64,000 bases of DNA from positions 1 through 64,000 of the forward strand of contig NZ_PDWP01000021.1 in assembly GCF_010093235.1 (NCBI RefSeq). The letters run 5' to 3'. A model generated the notes under the pieces. It searched no databases. It had not been told where the DNA came from and saw only the letters and a list, made by a program, of their open reading frames with translations. Position numbers and translations under genes: made by a program. This DNA comes from Pseudoxanthomonas suwonensis (GTDB lineage Bacteria > Pseudomonadota > Gammaproteobacteria > Xanthomonadales > Xanthomonadaceae). Shown piece after piece: positions 45,915-58,331 of this stretch (within the stretch, counting starts at the first letter, position 1; every line of letters begins with the position of its first letter).

Positions 45915-48245
<2,331 letters not shown>

Positions 48246-49112: not shown

Positions 49113-50282
49113 CTACCAGACGCGTCCGACAGGGTCGAACTCGGCGTTGCGCATCTGCCCTGCGCGCCAGCCGAAGCCGGAGACGGCGACCACGCCTTCT
49201 TCGAGCGGATCCAGTCCGAACGCCTGCTCGATGTCGATCTCGTTGACCGCGCAGGTGACGAAGGCGCCCAGTCCAAGGTCGGTGGCAGCCAGGTAGAGCG
49301 TCTGCGACAGATGGCCTGCGTCCATGATCACAGCGCGGTAGGCCTTGGGATGCTGCCGGTACTTCCAGAAGCAGCGCGCGAAGCGCGTGGCCATCACTAC
49401 CAGCACCGGCGCGTCGGCGAACCAGTGCTGCCCGGCGAGGAGGCGCATCGCCAGCGCATCCAGCGCCTCGCCCGGCGCCGGCAGCGGCTGCAGTGCGTGG
49501 TCGACGGGGTGGTAGTGGTACAGCCCCGGCGGCACGCCTTCCACGCGCTGTACCAGGAGGTAGGCCCCGGTGGGATGCAGGCTGCCTCCGGAAGGACTGC
49601 CCTTCTTCAGGAACACCGTGTCGTCGTCGGCCTGCCAGCTGCCATGCGCAGCGAACACGCGTTCGAGCATGCGTGCCAGCAGCTCCCGCGGCAGCGCGCG
49701 CTCCTGGTCGAAGTTGCGGCAGGTGGCGCGGCGCAGCAGCAGCGCGTCGAACTCCGTTCCCTCGCTGCGCGGCAGCGGCAGCTGCGGACCGTGGCCGCCG
49801 CGCCGCGCGACGGCGGGCGGCGGCACGCCCAGCTCCCTGCGCAGTCCGTCGGCGGGGGCAAGGCCTGCGGCCTCGGGTGCGGCGAGCGCATCGCGACCCT
49901 GCCAGCGGGCCGCTCCGTGCAGCATCGCCGCCGGCGCCCACCAGTGCCCGGCACGGAGCTGCGCGTCGCGCTGCGCATGCACCGCTCGCGATCCGCCATC
50001 TGGCGCTTCCATCACCGCCAGGCCGGCATCCAGCAGCGACTCCAGCACCGAGCCCTGCCCCGAGGCGAAGGCCGTCGCGTCCGCCCAGGCTTCCGGGGAA
50101 AGCGTGCCAAGCAAGTCGCGCTGGCCCTCGTCCAGCACCACCGGCTGCGCGAGATGGGGGGCGTGCGCAGCCCATTCAGCCGTGCGGCGAACGCCATTTC
50201 CGCCCGACAACAGCCCCTCCAGGTCGAACTCGACCTGCTCCCGCGGCTCCAGGTAGACGACCGCACACCTACGCACCCGCAT
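49113..50282 (-). CDS. SagB-type flavin dehydrogenase, putative peptide maturation dehydrogenase
   Basis: 389 residues from ATG 50282, just after AGGAGGGAACC. The C-terminal ~220 residues form a nitroreductase-like FMN domain with LLLRRATCRNFDQE (FMN phosphate-binding RR-x-x-x-R-x-F), GSPSGGSLHPTGAYLLVQ, and the C-terminal GDF-like SGFGWRAGQ. The N-terminal ~170 residues are a winged/leader-like domain seen in SagB relatives. SagB enzymes oxidise azolines to azoles in thiazole/oxazole peptides. It matches my memory of the TIGR04511-type dehydrogenase that accompanies a modified peptide and a cyclase. It is divergent from the precursor gene by 93 bp. No YcaO cyclodehydratase is present. Confidence 0.85.
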   Translation of the reverse strand: MRVRRCAVVYLEPREQVEFDLEGLLSGGNGVRRTAEWAAHAPHLAQPVVLDEGQRDLLGTLSPEAWADATAFASGQGSVLESLLDAGLAVMEAPDGGSRAVHAQRDAQLRAGHWWAPAAMLHGAARWQGRDALAAPEAAGLAPADGLRRELGVPPPAVARRGGHGPQLPLPRSEGTEFDALLLRRATCRNFDQERALPRELLARMLERVFAAHGSWQADDDTVFLKKGSPSGGSLHPTGAYLLVQRVEGVPPGLYHYHPVDHALQPLPAPGEALDALAMRLLAGQHWFADAPVLVVMATRFARCFWKYRQHPKAYRAVIMDAGHLSQTLYLAATDLGLGAFVTCAVNEIDIEQAFGLDPLEEGVVAVSGFGWRAGQMRNAEFDPVGRVW

Positions 50283-50375
50283 GGTTCCCTCCTGCCAAGA
50301 TCGCTTGCATCCCAGGCCCGCCAGTATGACGATGCCAAGTCCGGCGCCGAAGCGCGTCATGCATGGGGAAGCAAA

Positions 50376-50669
50376 ATGAAGAAGCCACTGGATCCGGCCG
50401 TCGCCAACGAACTGCTCGATCGCCTCGCAAGCGATGACGCCTTCCGCGACCTTTTTTCCAGCGACCCGCGCGCGGCGCTGTCCTCGCTCGGCCATGAAGT
50501 GTCGGCCGAGGAAACGCTGGCCTGCATGCGGACCAACGTGCTGGCATCCAAGGATGAAATCGCCTCGGCGCGCGATGCCCTGCGCACGCGCCTCACCGGC
50601 CACGCCACCGGCGCGATGACGGTGATCTTCAGCTTCGAGGCCGGCGCGCCGGACAAGCGCCTGGCCTGA
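50376..50669 (+). CDS. Putative modified-peptide precursor with NHLP-type leader
   Basis: 97 residues from ATG 50376, with GGGGAAG 4-5 bases upstream. Residues ~6-40 (DPAVANELLDRLASDDAF, then FRDLFSSDPRAALSSLG) follow the nitrile-hydratase-like leader pattern: L-x-x-L-x-x-D-x-x-F-R-x-x-x-x-x-D-P-x-x-A-L-x-x-L-G. The remainder has one Cys (in TLACMRTNV) and ends GHATGAMTVIFSFEAGAPDKRLA with no Gly-Gly cleavage site. From memory it fits the TIGR04509-type 'putative modified peptide'. It lies between the divergent dehydrogenase and the convergent cyclase (26 bp away). Its modification and function are unknown. Confidence 0.85.
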   Translation: MKKPLDPAVANELLDRLASDDAFRDLFSSDPRAALSSLGHEVSAEETLACMRTNVLASKDEIASARDALRTRLTGHATGAMTVIFSFEAGAPDKRLA

Positions 50670-50695
50670 CGGCCGCCGGACGCCCGCGCCGCCGC

Positions 50696-53197
50696 TCAGC
50701 GGCCCGCGGGCGTCTTCCCGGCCTGCGCCACGTCCACGGCATTGAAGGGCTGCAGGAGCTGGGTCACCGGCACTTCGGACCAGGCCTGGCCCACGTGCGC
50801 CTTCAGCCAGCGGTCCTGCACCGCCGCGCCCTCGACGTCGCCCACCGCGCGATACAGTTCGCGCATCACCACCCGCGTCTGCACCAGTTCGGTGCCATCC
50901 AGCTGCGGCGCCAGCAGGTCGATGCCCTCGCGCGGCCGCCCGTCCAGCCGCAGCTGGTTGGCCCTGACCAGGCTTATCAGCCGCGCCAGCGCGGCATTGG
51001 GCATGCTCGCCGCTTCCGGCTCGATCCATCCCAGGCATTCGGCCGCGAGCCTGCGGTAGCCCTGCCGCTGCGCGAGGTAGGCGAGCGTCGCGGCGCGGAA
51101 CAGTTCCTCGTGGCGGCTGGGCATGTTCGCGTCGCCCAGCGCGGTGCGGAAATCCTCCGCCAGCTGGCGCAGCGCCGCTTCCGGCAGCGGATCGCCGGCC
51201 AGCGCGCGCACCGTAGCGTCGACCAGGCTGAAGTGGCGCGGAAACGGATCAGGCATGGCCACGGCGCGCCAGCGTGCCCTGCCGGCCAGCTCCACCGCGC
51301 GCGCGCGGTCGCCCTCGACCAGGGCCAGCGAGGCCAGTCCACGCTGCGCCAGCAGCCAGATCAGCGTGCCGCCCTCGGGCCTCGAGTCGGCCAGGACCTG
51401 CCGCGCTTCCTCCCTGCGGCCCAGCGCGACGAGGACCTCCGCGCGTGCGCCCACCGCCGGCGCACGCCCGGCGTGCTGCGCCTGGTCAAGCATCTGCAGC
51501 GCCTCCTGCGGCCTGCCCAGCGCGTTCAGCGCGCGCGCGGCGTGCACCATGGTGTAGGTCCGCATCGGCGCCTGCGGCACCGAAGCCGCCGCGGCATGCT
51601 CCAGCGATTCCTCGAAGCGGTTGTCGACCAGCAGGTACCAGGCCGCGTTGGAACGCGCGGGGAGGTAGTCCGGGTAGAGCCTTGCCAGCGCCAGCCACTC
51701 GGTCAGCGGATTGCCCGAGGGTGCGACCTCCGTCTCCCAGGCGTCGACCAGCAGCCGCTCGCGCGGTGCCAGCGTGTTGCGCAGCCGCACCGCCTGCGCC
51801 ACGTGCGCGCGCGCCTCCGACTGCCGGGCCATCGCCCATTGCAGGCCGGCCAGGCCCAGGTGGGCGCGGGCGAAGCCCGGATCGATCCGCAGCGCGTTCT
51901 CGTAGAGGCTGCGTGCCTCGTCGTAGCGGCGCTGTGCCATCGCCGCCTCGCCCAGGGCGTAGGCGCGCAGCGCCTCCAGTTCCGACGTGGTCGCCTGGGA
52001 CAGGCTCACCCCGTCGCTGTCGATCGTCGCAATGGCCTCGCCCAGGCTCCTCCTGAGGTCCGAGGCGACCTCATCCACCGACGCCAGGATCGAGCCGACC
52101 CCCTTGCCGCTGGCCTTGCGCGAGTACACCGTGGCCTGGGATACCGGGTCGACCACCTCTATGGAGAACTGCAGCCGGCCGTCGACCTCGGCGACCGTCG
52201 GCAGGATCACCGCGCGCGCGCCGTCGCGCATCGCCACCCGGGAAGCCAGGGCGCGGTCGAGCGCGGTCTCGTCCGGATCCAGCTCCATCTGCTCCAGCGT
52301 CTGCCGCACCTTCAGTTCGCTGAGCACGTTGACGTGGCGCGACTGCTCCAGGCTGATGCGGAATGCCTGCTCCACTGCCTTGTCGAACATCGGATGCCCG
52401 GTCAGGTTGCGCAGGCTGCCGACGACGACCCAGTCGCGCTCGGCGAAGGCGATGGCCGGTTCGCTGCGGCTGGCCAGCCACAGCCCTATCGCCAGGCCCA
52501 GCACGGCGGCGACCTGGACGGCCAGCGCGAGCGGCCGCCGCCACGCCGGCAGCTCGCGCCTGGCCTTGCCGTCGGCCGGACGCGGCGGTGCGAGGGGGGC
52601 GATGCCTGGCTCGCCGGCCTCGTGCACTTCCACCGGTTCCGGCAGTCCCTTGAAGCGCCAGCGCCCGTGGTCCTTCCATGCCAGCGTCCGGGCACCCCCG
52701 GCCGCGAGTTCGGGCTCGGCGCGCCGGGCCCGGGACTGGGCGACATGCGACAGCAGGATCTGTCCCGGCCGGGCCAGGGCCATCAGCCGGGCCGCCACCG
52801 GCCTGGCCGGGCCCTCGACCTCCAGCGGCCTGGCGCCGTTCCGCACCGTCTCGGCATCGTTGGCCCAGCTGACCACCTCGCCCACGTGCAGGCCGGCACG
52901 CGCCGCCAGGCGCACCCCATGCGCCTGGCCCAGCGGACCCAGGCCGCGCTGGTAATCCAGGGCGAAACCCAGCCCGTCCTCCGGGCGCTCGAACAGCAGC
53001 AGCAGTCCGTCGGAACGGTCGATCAGCTGCCCGCGCCACTGCTGCTGCAGGCGCAGGACGAGCTGGTCGTGTTCGCGGAACAGGGCGGCGGCGTCGTCGC
53101 CCATGCGCTCGACCAGCGCGGCGGAATCGCACAGGTCGGTCATGAGCAGGGTCCGCAACCGCGGAACGTCGCTCCCCTTGGACGGCGGACCTTCCAT
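50696..53197 (-). CDS. Class III nucleotide cyclase-like / TPR protein of the peptide modification system
   Basis: 833 residues. Residues ~10-185 are a class III adenylate/guanylate cyclase domain: LLMTDLCDSAALVERMG (first metal Asp), RSDGLLLLF (second metal Asp), and AGLHVGEVV. The transition-state segment reads EGPARPVAARLMALA, keeping the Arg but apparently replacing the Asn of the usual VNxAxR. A linker and one membrane helix follow (LALAVQVAAVLGLAIGLWLA, ~225-245), then a FlgO/CadC-like strand region (VVVGSLRNLTGHPMFDKAV) and TPR repeats to the C-terminus. It matches, from memory, the TIGR04510-type 'peptide modification system cyclase' and resembles the Xanthomonas XC_0250 guanylate cyclase. 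Confidence 0.85.
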   Translation of the reverse strand: MEGPPSKGSDVPRLRTLLMTDLCDSAALVERMGDDAAALFREHDQLVLRLQQQWRGQLIDRSDGLLLLFERPEDGLGFALDYQRGLGPLGQAHGVRLAARAGLHVGEVVSWANDAETVRNGARPLEVEGPARPVAARLMALARPGQILLSHVAQSRARRAEPELAAGGARTLAWKDHGRWRFKGLPEPVEVHEAGEPGIAPLAPPRPADGKARRELPAWRRPLALAVQVAAVLGLAIGLWLASRSEPAIAFAERDWVVVGSLRNLTGHPMFDKAVEQAFRISLEQSRHVNVLSELKVRQTLEQMELDPDETALDRALASRVAMRDGARAVILPTVAEVDGRLQFSIEVVDPVSQATVYSRKASGKGVGSILASVDEVASDLRRSLGEAIATIDSDGVSLSQATTSELEALRAYALGEAAMAQRRYDEARSLYENALRIDPGFARAHLGLAGLQWAMARQSEARAHVAQAVRLRNTLAPRERLLVDAWETEVAPSGNPLTEWLALARLYPDYLPARSNAAWYLLVDNRFEESLEHAAAASVPQAPMRTYTMVHAARALNALGRPQEALQMLDQAQHAGRAPAVGARAEVLVALGRREEARQVLADSRPEGGTLIWLLAQRGLASLALVEGDRARAVELAGRARWRAVAMPDPFPRHFSLVDATVRALAGDPLPEAALRQLAEDFRTALGDANMPSRHEELFRAATLAYLAQRQGYRRLAAECLGWIEPEAASMPNAALARLISLVRANQLRLDGRPREGIDLLAPQLDGTELVQTRVVMRELYRAVGDVEGAAVQDRWLKAHVGQAWSEVPVTQLLQPFNAVDVAQAGKTPAGR

Positions 53198-53206
53198 CAG
53201 GTGGCC

Positions 53207-53506
53207 TCAGGTACGTGCGGGCGGCTCGCCATCGGCCCAGCAGACGCGGTTGCCGCCTTGGCGCTTGGCCTCGTAAAGGGCGGCATCGGCGTGAGCGTAC
53301 CAGTGGTTCAAGTCGCTGTGAACGTGGACCAGGAGCCCGCCCGGATCGCCCCGGCGGAACAGGCGCTCGCCATCCCGGACTTCCCGCGGCTGCCCCATCG
53401 AGGCGAACAGCGCGTGCTCGGCAGCGGCCAGCGCCGCCGTGGCCGCCTCGGACACCCTGCCGTGCCCCGCCTGGGGGGCGCTGGCGCCCACCGCGTCGAT
53501 CGACAT
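53207..53506 (-). pseudogene. Remnant joining cNMP-binding start to GGDEF end
   Basis: A 99-codon ORF from ATG 53506. Residues ~35-60 (PREVRDGERLFRRGDPGGLL) look like the first strands of a cyclic-nucleotide-binding domain. From residue ~66 it reads WYAHADAALYEAKRQGGNRV, the last helix and strand of a GGDEF diguanylate cyclase. The GG(D/E)EF site and the rest of both domains are missing, so it looks like an internally deleted cNMP-GGDEF gene. It ends 9 bp before the cyclase start on the same strand, the place where an effector such as Xanthomonas XC_0249 would sit (recalled pairing). It might still be translated. Confidence 0.65.
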
Positions 53507-53887
53507 CCCGCCGTCCCCTTCCCGCTCCCCGTGGGAGCTCCCGACCATACCACGGGAACTGAATATCGCATCACAGTTCGGGGCTGGGCGCGCGCGGGAG
53601 AGGGGGCGCCGATGCCGCCAGCAGCCCGGATGTCCCGCTCCGTGGGACGAACCTGCGGGGCGCGGGAAGGGCCGACGCATGCCGCGGTTAGTGGGTACGC
53701 GTCCGGTTCCAGGAGGATTTGTGCCGCCCTCCGGGCCACAGGCAGCGATTGGCGCGGTTGCCGGCGACAGCCAGGACCTGGGCCAGGCGGCCCGCAGGGC
53801 AGCCACGGACCGGCATCCGCTGCTGCAGGTGGATGACCAGCTTCCCGTGGTATCCCGGTTCGACATGCGCCCCCCAGCCGAGAGGCC

Positions 53888-54198: not shown

Positions 54199-55491
54199 TC
54201 AGGCCGCGTTGCGGTCCTGGAACTGCTCTTCCTCGGTCGAGCCCTTCAGCGCCGTGGTCGAGGACTGGCCCTGCTGGATGGCCTGGGTCACCGCGTCGAA
54301 GTAGCCGGTGCCCACCTCACGCTGGTGCTTGACCGCGGTGAAGCCCTTCTCGGCCGCGGCGAACTCCGCTTCCTGCAGCTCGACGAAAGCGCTCATCTGG
54401 TTGCGGGCATAGCCGTGGGCCAGGTTGAACATCGAGTAGTTCAGGGCGTGGAAGCCGGCCAGGGTGATGAACTGGAACTTGTAGCCGTAGCTGGCGATCT
54501 CCTTCTGGAACTTGGCGATCGTGGCGTCGTCCAGGTTCTTCTTCCAGTTGAAGCTCGGCGAGCAGTTGTAGGCCAGCATCTTGCCCGGGTACTTGGCGTG
54601 GATGGCCTCGGCGAACTTGCGCGCGAACTCCAGGTCCGGCTTGCCGGTCTCGCACCAGATCAGGTCGGCGTACGGGGCGTAGGCCAGGCCGCGGCTGATC
54701 GACTGCTCCAGGCCGTTCCTGACCCGGTAGAAGCCCTCGACGGTGCGCTCGCCGGTGCAGAACGGCTTGTCGTTGTCGTCGATGTCCGAGGTCAGCAGGT
54801 CGGCGGCCTCGGCGTCGGTGCGCGCGATCAGGATGGTCGGCACGCCCATCACGTCGGCGGCCAGGCGCGCGGCGTTGAGCTTCTCCACCGCCTCGCGGGT
54901 CGGCACCAGCACCTTGCCGCCCATGTGGCCGCACTTCTTCACCGAGGCCAGCTGGTCCTCGAAGTGCACTCCCGCCGCACCGGCCTCGATCATCGCCTTC
55001 ATCAGTTCGAAGGCGTTGAGCACGCCGCCGAATCCCGCCTCGGCGTCGGCCACGATCGGCTGCAGGAAGTCGATGCTGTCGTTGCCCTCGGCGTGGTGCA
55101 GCTGGTCGGCGCGCAGCAGGGTGTTGTTGATGCGCTTGACCACCGCCGGCACCGAATCGGCCGGGTACAGCGACTGGTCGGGATACATCTGCCCGGCCAG
55201 GTTGGCGTCGGCCGCCACCTGCCAGCCGCTCAGGTAGATCGCCTTGAGGCCCGCCTTGACCTGCTGCATGGCCTGGTTGCCGGTCAGCGCGCCCAGCGCG
55301 TTGACGAAGTCCAGCTCGTGCAGGTAGTTCCACAGCTTGCCCGAGGTGATGCGGGCGATGGAATGGTCCACCGGGATGGTGCCGCGCAGGCGCACGACGT
55401 CCTCGGCGGTGTAGTTGCGGGTGATGCCGGCCCAGCGCGGGTCGGTGTTCCATTCGTGCTGGATCTGCTCGGCGGTCTTCAGCGTGCTCAT
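54199..55491 (-). CDS. aceA: Isocitrate lyase
   Basis: 430 residues from ATG 55491 ([20 protein letters not shown]). The catalytic loop is [14 protein letters not shown], with Cys in the KKCGH signature. [22 protein letters not shown] and [12 protein letters not shown] form the substrate site. It splits isocitrate into succinate and glyoxylate, allowing growth on acetate and fatty acids. It is 74 bp behind aceB on the same strand, forming an aceBA operon. Confidence 0.97.
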
Positions 55492-55565
55492 GGGTTTCTC
55501 CGTGGGGCTCTTGGGCGGTGCGGTCTTGATGGTCGTTCCCGTCGTCCGGCATGCCGGAACGACGG

Positions 55566-57254
<1,689 letters not shown>

Positions 57255-57306
57255 TGGGGGCTCCTGCTGCGGTGCGGGAGTCCAAGCTGCTGCCTCGCTC
57301 ATGTAT

Positions 57307-57327
57307 TTGACAAAGCAGTTTTGTCAA
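57307..57327. promoter_or_regulatory. Palindromic operator overlapping the aceB -35
   Basis: TTGACAAA (57307-57314) and TTTGTCAA (57320-57327) form a perfect 8-bp inverted repeat with a 5-base centre, in the aceB/LysR divergent region. On the minus strand it contains an exact TTGACA that could be the aceB -35 (16 bases before TACATG). This geometry suits repression or activation by the adjacent LysR protein. Confidence 0.6.
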
Positions 57328-57335
57328 TGTAGTTC

Positions 57336-57350
57336 ATAAGTCAGGCTTAT
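57336..57350. promoter_or_regulatory. Second LysR-type operator
   Basis: ATAAG-N5-CTTAT is a perfect 15-bp palindrome with the T-N11-A layout of LysR sites, 8 bases from the first palindrome and nearer the LysR start. Confidence 0.5.
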
Positions 57351-57368
57351 ATCGTCGGTGACGATTAC

Positions 57369-58331
57369 GTGAGCGCTGCTGCAAGTCCGCGTTTTTCCTA
57401 CAAATCCGACCGACTGAAACCCCTGCGCGCGTTCTGCCAGACCGTGCGCCTGGGCTCGGTCTCAAGGGCGGCGGAGGCGCTTTTCGTGTCCCAGCCGGCC
57501 ATCACCCTGCAGTTGCAGGCGCTGGAGCGCGACCTGGGCATGCCCCTGCTGGAGCGTTCCGGGCGGCGCCTGCTGCCCACCCGGGAAGGCGAGCTGCTCT
57601 ACGAGATGGCCCTGCCGCTGGTCGAACAGCTGGACGGCCTGGAGAACGCGTTCCGCGAACGGGTGCGCGGGCTGGACGCCGGCGAGCTGCGGATCGCGGC
57701 CAATAGCTCGACCATCCTCTACCTGCTGCCGAAGATCGTCGCCGCCTTCCGCCAGCAGCATCCGGACGTGCACCTGGTGCTGAACAACGTGGTCACCAGC
57801 GAGGGCACCGAGCTGCTGCGCGAGGACAAGGTGGACCTGGTGGTCGGGACCATGCTGGACGTGCCCGCCGACCTCAGCTACGAGGCCGCGCACCGCTTCG
57901 AGCAGCGCCTGGTCGCACCGCCCGGGCATCCGCTGCTGCGCAAGGCGCGGCTGGAACTGTCCGACCTGTCCGAGCACCCGCTGATCCTGCCGCCGCAACG
58001 CCAGGTGACCTGGCGCCTGGTCGACCTGGTGCTGCAGCAGAACCGGGTGCCTTACACGGTCGCGCTGGAGGTCAGCGGCTGGGACGTGATCAAGCAATAC
58101 GTGGCCATGGGCCTGGGCGTGTCCATCGTCCCGTCGGTATGCCTGAACGAGGGCGACGAGGCTCGCCTGGGCTCGCGGTCGCTGGCCGCGTTCTTCCCCG
58201 CGCGCAGCTACGGGGTGGTCGTGCGCAAGGGCCGCGTGCTGTCGCCACAGGCACGCGCCTTCATCGCCCTGATCCGCCCGGACCTGATGGCGCCACGCGA
58301 ATACGACCAGAGCGGGCATTCCGAACGCTGA
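57369..58331 (+). CDS. LysR-family regulator, probable glyoxylate shunt regulator
   Basis: 320 residues from GTG 57369. The N-terminal winged helix-turn-helix reads LRAFCQTVRLGSVSRAAEALFVSQ then PAITLQLQALERDLG (residues ~18-55), followed by the linker helix and a CysB-like effector domain with LRIAANSSTILYLLPKIVAAF and GWDVIKQYVAMGLGVSIVPS. It is divergent from aceBA across 114 bp holding two palindromes, so it probably controls those genes and itself. The inducer is unknown. Confidence 0.88.
   Translation: MSAAASPRFSYKSDRLKPLRAFCQTVRLGSVSRAAEALFVSQPAITLQLQALERDLGMPLLERSGRRLLPTREGELLYEMALPLVEQLDGLENAFRERVRGLDAGELRIAANSSTILYLLPKIVAAFRQQHPDVHLVLNNVVTSEGTELLREDKVDLVVGTMLDVPADLSYEAAHRFEQRLVAPPGHPLLRKARLELSDLSEHPLILPPQRQVTWRLVDLVLQQNRVPYTVALEVSGWDVIKQYVAMGLGVSIVPSVCLNEGDEARLGSRSLAAFFPARSYGVVVRKGRVLSPQARAFIALIRPDLMAPREYDQSGHSER

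Follow-up and report, generated by a model that had tools for sequence, protein, structure and literature searches.

Introduction

Pairs of a peptide pheromone and a type-matched receptor are known mainly from Gram-positive bacteria; comQXPA is a pherotype locus similar to agr, and the cytoplasmic receptors of the RRNPP family bind short peptides by means of TPR repeats. In the agr locus of Staphylococcus aureus, the modifying enzyme, the peptide, and the sensor half of the receptor vary together while the signaling half is conserved, and the hypervariable region spans the 3' part of agrB, agrD, and the 5' part of agrC (PMC3673130). Here, we describe a locus that varies in a similar manner in a stretch of 64,000 nucleotides from Pseudoxanthomonas suwonensis (positions 1 to 64,000 of NZ_PDWP01000021.1). 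This whole stretch, contig 13 of a 3.42 Mb genome, is referred to below as the window. Three adjacent genes at 49113-53197 encode a SagB-type dehydrogenase, a 97-residue peptide, and a cyclase/TPR protein. No part is related to agr, as a dehydrogenase, an NHLP peptide, and a repeat-cyclase protein are found here instead of AgrB, AgrD, and a histidine kinase, and the hosts are Gram-negative.

The cassette corresponds to the putative peptide modification system described in NCBIfam by TIGR04509, TIGR04510, and TIGR04511, since three adjacent proteins exceed the curated cut-offs. These models merely name the parts, and the polymorphic block, YcaO absence, and cyclase-free form reported here go further. 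A search of the open-access literature, with most subscription journals outside its scope, returned no paper using these accessions or the exact family names. Among the open-access matches listed, we likewise found in print no Gram-negative pheromone of the ribosomally synthesized and post-translationally modified peptide (RiPP) type, no hypervariable cyclase/TPR locus, and no account of the cyclase-free actinobacterial form, of the polymorphic block, or of YcaO being absent genome-wide.

Other described systems share single parts with the cassette. The pfl/pos (Os1348) RiPP clusters of Pseudomonas also combine an NHLP-type precursor with a YcaO-free nitroreductase (PMC12636437). However, their nitroreductase is fused to an MNIO domain that the window enzyme lacks (Pfam finds Nitroreductase only), the clusters carry GNAT and HEXXH genes, and the accessible text on the Os17 cluster mentions a cyclase nowhere (0 occurrences, PMC7726476). 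The cassette differs from the thiazole/oxazole-modified microcins (McbC, SagB, ThcOx) in having no YcaO. The cyclodipeptide oxidase AlbAB acts on cyclodipeptides, forms filaments, and shows low identity (16-19%).

Results

A polymorphic block beside a conserved cyclase domain

The outer half of the cyclase/TPR protein, the peptide, and the dehydrogenase are exchanged as one block beside a conserved cyclase domain. This is our main new finding, and the initial annotation did not include it. The parts concerned are located in the window as follows.

49113..50282, minus strand: SagB-type dehydrogenase P0001 (TIGR04511), 389 residues; profile match and confident fold model
50376..50669, plus strand: precursor peptide P0003 (TIGR04509), 97 residues; profile match
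50696..53197, minus strand: membrane cyclase/TPR protein P0002 (TIGR04510), putative receptor, 833 residues; profile match, model, and segment analysis
52598..53161, minus strand: residues 13-200, class III cyclase domain; little changed among close relatives, fold match
52469..52546, minus strand: residues 218-243, predicted transmembrane helix with the cyclase domain on its inner side; model helix and hydrophobic segment
50711..52459, minus strand: outer half (residues 247-829), composed of a beta domain followed by TPR-like repeats, putative sensor; hypervariable, model
49113..52459, no strand: approximate polymorphic block, drawn by analogy, with break points located in relatives and not in the window

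Identity along the locus was compared in 106 close pairs of loci, with an isocitrate lyase identity of at least 97% and one genome per species; counts of such pairs are non-independent because related loci share history. Median identity across these pairs is 95% in the cyclase domain, 71% in the transmembrane region, and 65% in the beta domain. It stands at 44%, 26%, and 28% in repeats a, b, and c, at 39% in the peptide, and at 56% in the dehydrogenase, with the flanking genes at 97% (AceB) and 93% (ComM). Identity in the repeats falls into two classes, with 62 pairs below 45%, 40 pairs at 60% or higher, and four between. Dehydrogenase identity has a median of 47% in the low class, where it is at most 74%, and of 95% in the high class, where it is at least 74%. 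Across 98 close pairs of different type, identity stands at 19% (median) in the peptide tail, 40% in the leader, and 53% in the flavin mononucleotide (FMN) domain of the dehydrogenase, compared with 42% and 34% in the N-terminal part of that enzyme; in 70 same-type close pairs, tail (82%), leader, and FMN domain all lie at 81-91%.

The borders of the block are sharp at the DNA level. Loci L055 and L152 are 97.2% identical over 5.9 kb on one flank and 98.8% identical over 5.6 kb on the other, and blastn finds no match in the 3.6 kb between these near-identical flanks. The block in this pair begins at about codon 254, just past the transmembrane helix, and contains the outer half, the peptide, and the dehydrogenase. 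DNA comparison of L058 with L059, both from single-contig genomes, and of L044 with L049 places the breaks in the receptor gene near codon 379 and near codon 386, respectively, and similarity returns inside the dehydrogenase gene in L044/L049.

Rank correlations describe the same co-segregation, in which the outer half follows the dehydrogenase and the peptide more closely than its own cyclase domain. Over 94 loci, and controlling for the cyclase domain and flanking genes, the partial rank correlation of the repeats is 0.596 with the dehydrogenase and 0.474 with the peptide (0/299 permutations each), whereas the repeats and their own cyclase domain give -0.115 when dehydrogenase and peptide are controlled for. 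In the 106 close pairs, the Spearman coefficients of the repeats are 0.80 with the dehydrogenase, 0.86 with the peptide, and 0.10 with AceB. The window conforms to this pattern. When it is compared with L032 (isocitrate lyase 98%, cyclase domain 80%), repeats b and c are 20% and 27% identical and the dehydrogenase 56%. The corresponding values for L076, which is less similar in isocitrate lyase (93%) and cyclase domain (68%), are 58%, 55%, and 76%.

The membrane cyclase/TPR protein

The model of P0002 has a mean predicted local distance difference test (pLDDT) score of 88.8 and a predicted template modeling (pTM) score of 0.57, and domain placement is uncertain because of the latter value. It runs from a cyclase fold (13-195) through helix 218-243 and a beta domain (255-364) to helical repeats (369-826). 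All 107 relatives have a hydrophobic segment at the position of this helix, with a higher net charge before it than after it (107/107), and the cyclase domain is therefore predicted inside, and the repeats outside, the inner membrane. P0002 is thus predicted to be a membrane protein with a single transmembrane segment and a cytoplasmic cyclase. The form found in Xanthomonadales, with this predicted segment and a hypervariable outer half, agrees better with a receptor than with a maturation factor. TPR repeats are shared with RRNPP receptors, although those of the window are predicted to lie outside the inner membrane and RRNPP receptors are cytoplasmic.

The cyclase domain matches Ma1120 (E-value 2.3e-8) and Rv1900c (4.4e-8) in Foldseek. 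Asp21 and Asp63, which we take to bind metal, are kept in 43/44 sequences, and Arg137, presumably also catalytic, in 44/45. We did not keep the notion of a decaying pseudo-enzyme, as close relatives agree more closely in this domain than in any other part of the protein, and D21, D63, and R137 are retained. The repeat matches among the first 50 PDB matches are of the O-GlcNAc transferase type and SPINDLY.

Shortened forms of the protein also occur. A transmembrane segment with an outer half and no cyclase domain is encoded in genome G096 (L043:10013-11860). Its reading frame begins on the last part of the dehydrogenase gene, and it shares 33% identity with the full receptor next to it. A similar protein is encoded on another contig in G073 (L074:2354-4444). 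The membrane protein of G091 is shortened as well, with a start chosen by script, and may be incomplete.

Family assignment, occurrence, and chromosomal address

In NCBIfam profile searches, P0001 scores 547.8 bits against TIGR04511 (curated cut-off 240), P0003 98 bits against TIGR04509 (cut-off 34), and P0002 972.5 bits against TIGR04510 (cut-off 400); Pfam finds Nitroreductase in P0001 and TPR repeats in P0002. Across 200 sampled genomes of the order, a family was counted as present when it had a match over the curated cut-off. By this measure, each family is found in 43 of the 200, in identical sets of genomes; this comparison of sets took in 42 genomes, the 43rd being the genome of the window. 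The cassette occurs in 31/36 genomes of the window's own family group and in 12/164 outside it. A GTDB genome scan with the dehydrogenase alignment gave 295 loci with a relative, and among the best 80 of these the peptide adjoins the dehydrogenase in all 80. The cyclase is also present in 72/80, one of them truncated by a contig end. Two of the other eight, L086 and L120, stop close to a contig edge on the cyclase side, and six are actinobacterial. The initial annotation had named the families of the three genes within 4 kb, given their model numbers, claimed their co-occurrence in Xanthomonadales, and paired the dehydrogenase with the peptide. The curated profile matches confirm the family calls and model numbers, the shared 43/200 genomes with adjacent genes bear out the co-occurrence, and the pairing is supported as well.

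The cassette has a fixed chromosomal address beside glyoxylate-shunt genes in many Lysobacteraceae, which the initial annotation did not mention. In most Xanthomonadales loci it lies beside aceA-aceB and a LysR gene, with comM on the opposite side in many. Among 122 loci with a dehydrogenase match, flanking genes were counted as AceA in 98, AceB in 96, LysR in 83, and ComM in 41; two partly overlapping locus sets were used, many loci end before the flank, and gene names were assigned by reading translations. In the window, the cassette lies between a comM-like gene and aceA-aceB-LysR (flanks at about 46725-48245 and 54199-58331). A frame at 53207-53866 (minus strand), upstream of the cyclase gene, resembles the end of what we take to be a GGDEF domain.

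The peptide gene lies on the strand opposite to the cyclase gene and is divergent from the dehydrogenase gene in most loci. In a second class comprising L055, L059, L048, L068, and L070 (genomes G175, G195, G136, G033, and G067), the dehydrogenase is on the strand of the peptide. Peptides of this class have about 78-97 residues and very short tails, and their dehydrogenases form a separate tree group (support 99/94). To the dehydrogenase of the window, the nearest one from a named locus belongs to Pseudoxanthomonas jiangsuensis (76% identity). Copy numbers also vary, with five peptides in G091, two in several genomes, and two cassettes in G110. In Stenotrophomonas humi (L095:3061-9167), two peptide-dehydrogenase pairs lie in succession behind a single receptor, an arrangement that looks like the addition of a second type beside the first. 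A record titled Bacillus subtilis SK7B5 (L143) contains a complete Stenotrophomonas-like cassette and is probably contaminated or misnamed.

Peptide-dehydrogenase pairs without the cyclase in Actinobacteria

Six actinobacterial loci consist of peptide and dehydrogenase only: L080, L081, L084, L085, and L088 from Streptomyces, and L089 from Kribbella antibiotica. They have one to five peptide copies and dehydrogenases that are 57-60% identical to that of the window, and none of the six genomes, searched in full, contains a TIGR04510 match. The flanks were compared over up to 8 kb on each side, less in L080 and L089. Frames matched in another locus nearly all overlap the peptide and dehydrogenase genes, the sole exception being a pair in L084 and L088 (42% over about 80 residues). 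Because six genomes keep the pair without the cyclase, peptide and dehydrogenase appear to be a functional pair and the cyclase protein a separate module. The cyclase was therefore rejected as a required maturation factor, and the suggestion in the initial annotation that it assists the modification finds no support. In a tree built from a reduced set of members, the actinobacterial dehydrogenases and that of Lysobacter antibioticus form one group inside the Xanthomonadales members (support 100/97), which points to transfer of the peptide-dehydrogenase pair into Actinobacteria.

The dehydrogenase and its chemistry

The dehydrogenase scores 117.6 bits against the SagB-family model TIGR03605 (cut-off 78.4), and its model (mean pLDDT 93.4) has the McbC/ThcOx/BmdC fold. 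Its parts are the following.

49116..49757, minus strand: FMN nitroreductase domain, residues 176-389; Pfam Nitroreductase at 184-372, fold matches at about 176-387
49359..49364, minus strand: Lys307-Tyr308; invariant in 39/39 and 53/53 aligned members
49758..50282, minus strand: N-terminal part, residues 1-175; less conserved than the FMN domain in different-type close pairs

The Lys-Tyr pair is presumably the one that is catalytic in azoline dehydrogenases. An interpretation of the N-terminal part as similar to a RiPP recognition element, based on the order of helices and strands, was not retained because fold matches barely extend into that part.

A genome-wide search, for which E. coli and four archaea served as positive controls, gave no YcaO match anywhere in the genome of the window, and none in 41 of 43 carrier genomes, with a match in the other two. 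The Kribbella genome with five peptides gave none in the same search. Azole chemistry is therefore unlikely, and the earlier remark that no YcaO gene lies nearby holds for the whole genome, which also supports the claim that the chemistry differs from that of thiazole/oxazole peptides. Among 36 non-member SagB-like domains, the nearest is that of a PflD-like nitroreductase (166.7 bits, next 119.5), to which the dehydrogenase is 45% identical over 148 residues. PflD forms Z-dehydrophenylalanine on a related NHLP-type leader peptide without YcaO (PMC12636437). The stand-alone SagB-like enzyme is predicted to desaturate Phe or Leu of a ribosomal peptide.

The PflD-like protein (P0004, 650 residues) was recognized by gene order and length, like Os1351, and is not the published PflD. 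A genome with a Pseudomonas-type 16S signature was chosen by primer pattern (1/274) and its family was searched; an Os1348-type peptide exceeds the cut-off in 1/158 genomes of that family, and P0004 comes from this genome. In the class sample, Os1348 relatives occur in 17/274 genomes at an E-value of 0.001, with one over the cut-off (G001) and no Pseudomonas cluster. The dehydrogenase tree was made after dropping rows L189, L190, L191, L192, and L217 (poor or long), and the reduced set of members comprises 30 of 62 rows. It did not firmly unite the family and the PflD-like enzyme in one clade; a short CyaGox fragment on a long branch attached inside. A topology keeping the family and the PflD-like row together was not rejected by the approximately unbiased test (p-AU 0.369).

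The precursor peptide

The peptide is divided as follows.

50385..50522, plus strand: NHLP-like leader, residues 4-49; similar in profile to Os1348 and to alpha chains of nitrile hydratase
50595..50666, plus strand: hypervariable tail, putative core, residues 74-97; identity in close pairs
50634..50636, plus strand: Phe87, predicted modification site, with Phe85 as the second candidate

A PDB search with the peptide profile matched nitrile hydratase alpha chains (E-value 0.0012) and Os1348 (6lk7, 0.054), whereas the single peptide sequence gave no match in the PDB. The peptide lies below the cut-offs of the Os1348 family (NF038399, 35.2 bits, cut-off 40), which the same-genus genome G001 reaches with 40 bits, and of the proteusin NHLP leader (TIGR03793, 17.6 bits, cut-off 50.9). 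Position 87 is Phe or Leu in 120/135 distinct peptides. Phe as the sole universal target was abandoned because Leu occupies this position in 56/135.

Discussion

Enzyme, peptide, and sensor half co-vary beside a conserved signaling domain, as in agr, and a polymorphic peptide-signaling or self-recognition locus is therefore the best explanation of the cassette. We give an even chance to such an agr-like pairing of pheromone and receptor, built from other parts. Two features of the design of a pherotype locus are found here: precursor, enzyme, and a membrane receptor-like protein are adjacent, and enzyme, peptide, and sensor half are hypervariable together beside a conserved signaling half. In the proposed mechanism, the dehydrogenase would bind the NHLP-type leader of the peptide and, acting without a YcaO partner, would strip two hydrogens from one residue of the core, with the conserved Phe/Leu (Phe87) as the likeliest target, to give an alpha,beta-dehydroamino acid. 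The tail would then be freed and exported by means encoded outside the cassette. Its sensor may be the membrane cyclase protein encoded by the same allele, with the repeat half receiving the tail in the periplasm and the cytoplasmic class III cyclase domain relaying the signal.

Several observations weigh against this interpretation. Linkage by itself contributes to co-segregation, and a correlation of the repeats with the cyclase domain is seen too when only the 106 close pairs are taken (Spearman 0.65). Some pairs break the rule; L151/L153, for example, has a dehydrogenase identity of 72% but a repeat identity of 31%, and L051/L095 shows 75% in the repeats but 50% in the dehydrogenase; L095 has two dehydrogenases. 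In a hand alignment, Pro occupies the site of the presumably catalytic Asn of the cyclase in 44/46 sequences; Ma1120 appears to have Ala there. A sister relationship between the family and the PflD-like enzyme is not resolved in the tree (placement support 96/60), and Ser or Thr occurs in 111/122 distinct tails and Cys in 47. Finally, Actinobacteria retain the signal-making pair without the putative receptor.

This last observation also agrees with the main rival explanation, a polymorphic bacteriocin, in which the modified peptide would harm related strains and the producer would be protected by its allele's own membrane repeat protein, either directly or through sensing of the peptide. Toxin and immunity pairs are likewise swapped as polymorphic blocks, and G096 and G073 encode outer halves that are anchored in the membrane but lack a cyclase domain. 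Moreover, loss of the Os1348 peptide reduced antibiotic activity in Pseudomonas sp. Os17 (PMC7726476). Nevertheless, we consider a bacteriocin unlikely, as nearly every locus has a conserved cytoplasmic cyclase domain that an immunity protein would not need, and the cassette is present family-wide (31/36) at a fixed address. This distribution would suit the pair making a housekeeping product while the outer half of its neighbor varies by relaxed constraint or fast drift, and repeats often diverge fast. However, drift leaves a smear where we see two classes with sharp DNA borders and co-variation with peptide and dehydrogenase, and a core at 19% between close relatives would be unexpected, so that a housekeeping role seems improbable.

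The hypervariability of the outer domain could also reflect diversification by phages or predators, with the protein as a surface sensor or defense component and the peptide secondary; class III cyclases act in Pycsar defense. We regard this as very improbable, since the outer half co-varies with peptide and dehydrogenase and is predicted to lie behind the outer membrane. Phage defense was rejected on the PADLOC results, which assign only a generic TPR model (13.1 bits) to P0002, nothing to P0001 or P0003, and no specific model to any of the three. Classical thiazole/oxazole chemistry with YcaO encoded elsewhere in the genome would account for the retained McbC/ThcOx fold and Lys-Tyr pair. It is nearly refuted by the genome-wide searches, which exclude a distant YcaO in the genome of the window and in 41/43 carriers, and extend to the Kribbella genome with five peptides.

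Returning to the signaling interpretation, we tentatively propose a more specific form of it, at somewhat less than an even chance, in which Gram-negative bacteria use a pheromone for self-recognition, assembled from parts unrelated to those of known systems: a ribosomal peptide given a dehydroamino acid by the stand-alone SagB-like enzyme would be sensed outside the inner membrane by the hypervariable repeat half of a receptor cyclase, with exchangeable types at a fixed address beside the glyoxylate-shunt genes. Soil Actinobacteria would have acquired only the half that makes the signal, with as many as five peptides. If this is true, the locus would provide a function for three uncharacterized NCBIfam families, and actinobacterial peptides could imitate the signals of neighbors resembling Lysobacter or interfere with them. 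It would also represent a new channel of communication or kin recognition in Lysobacteraceae, including Xanthomonas, Stenotrophomonas, Lysobacter, and Pseudoxanthomonas.

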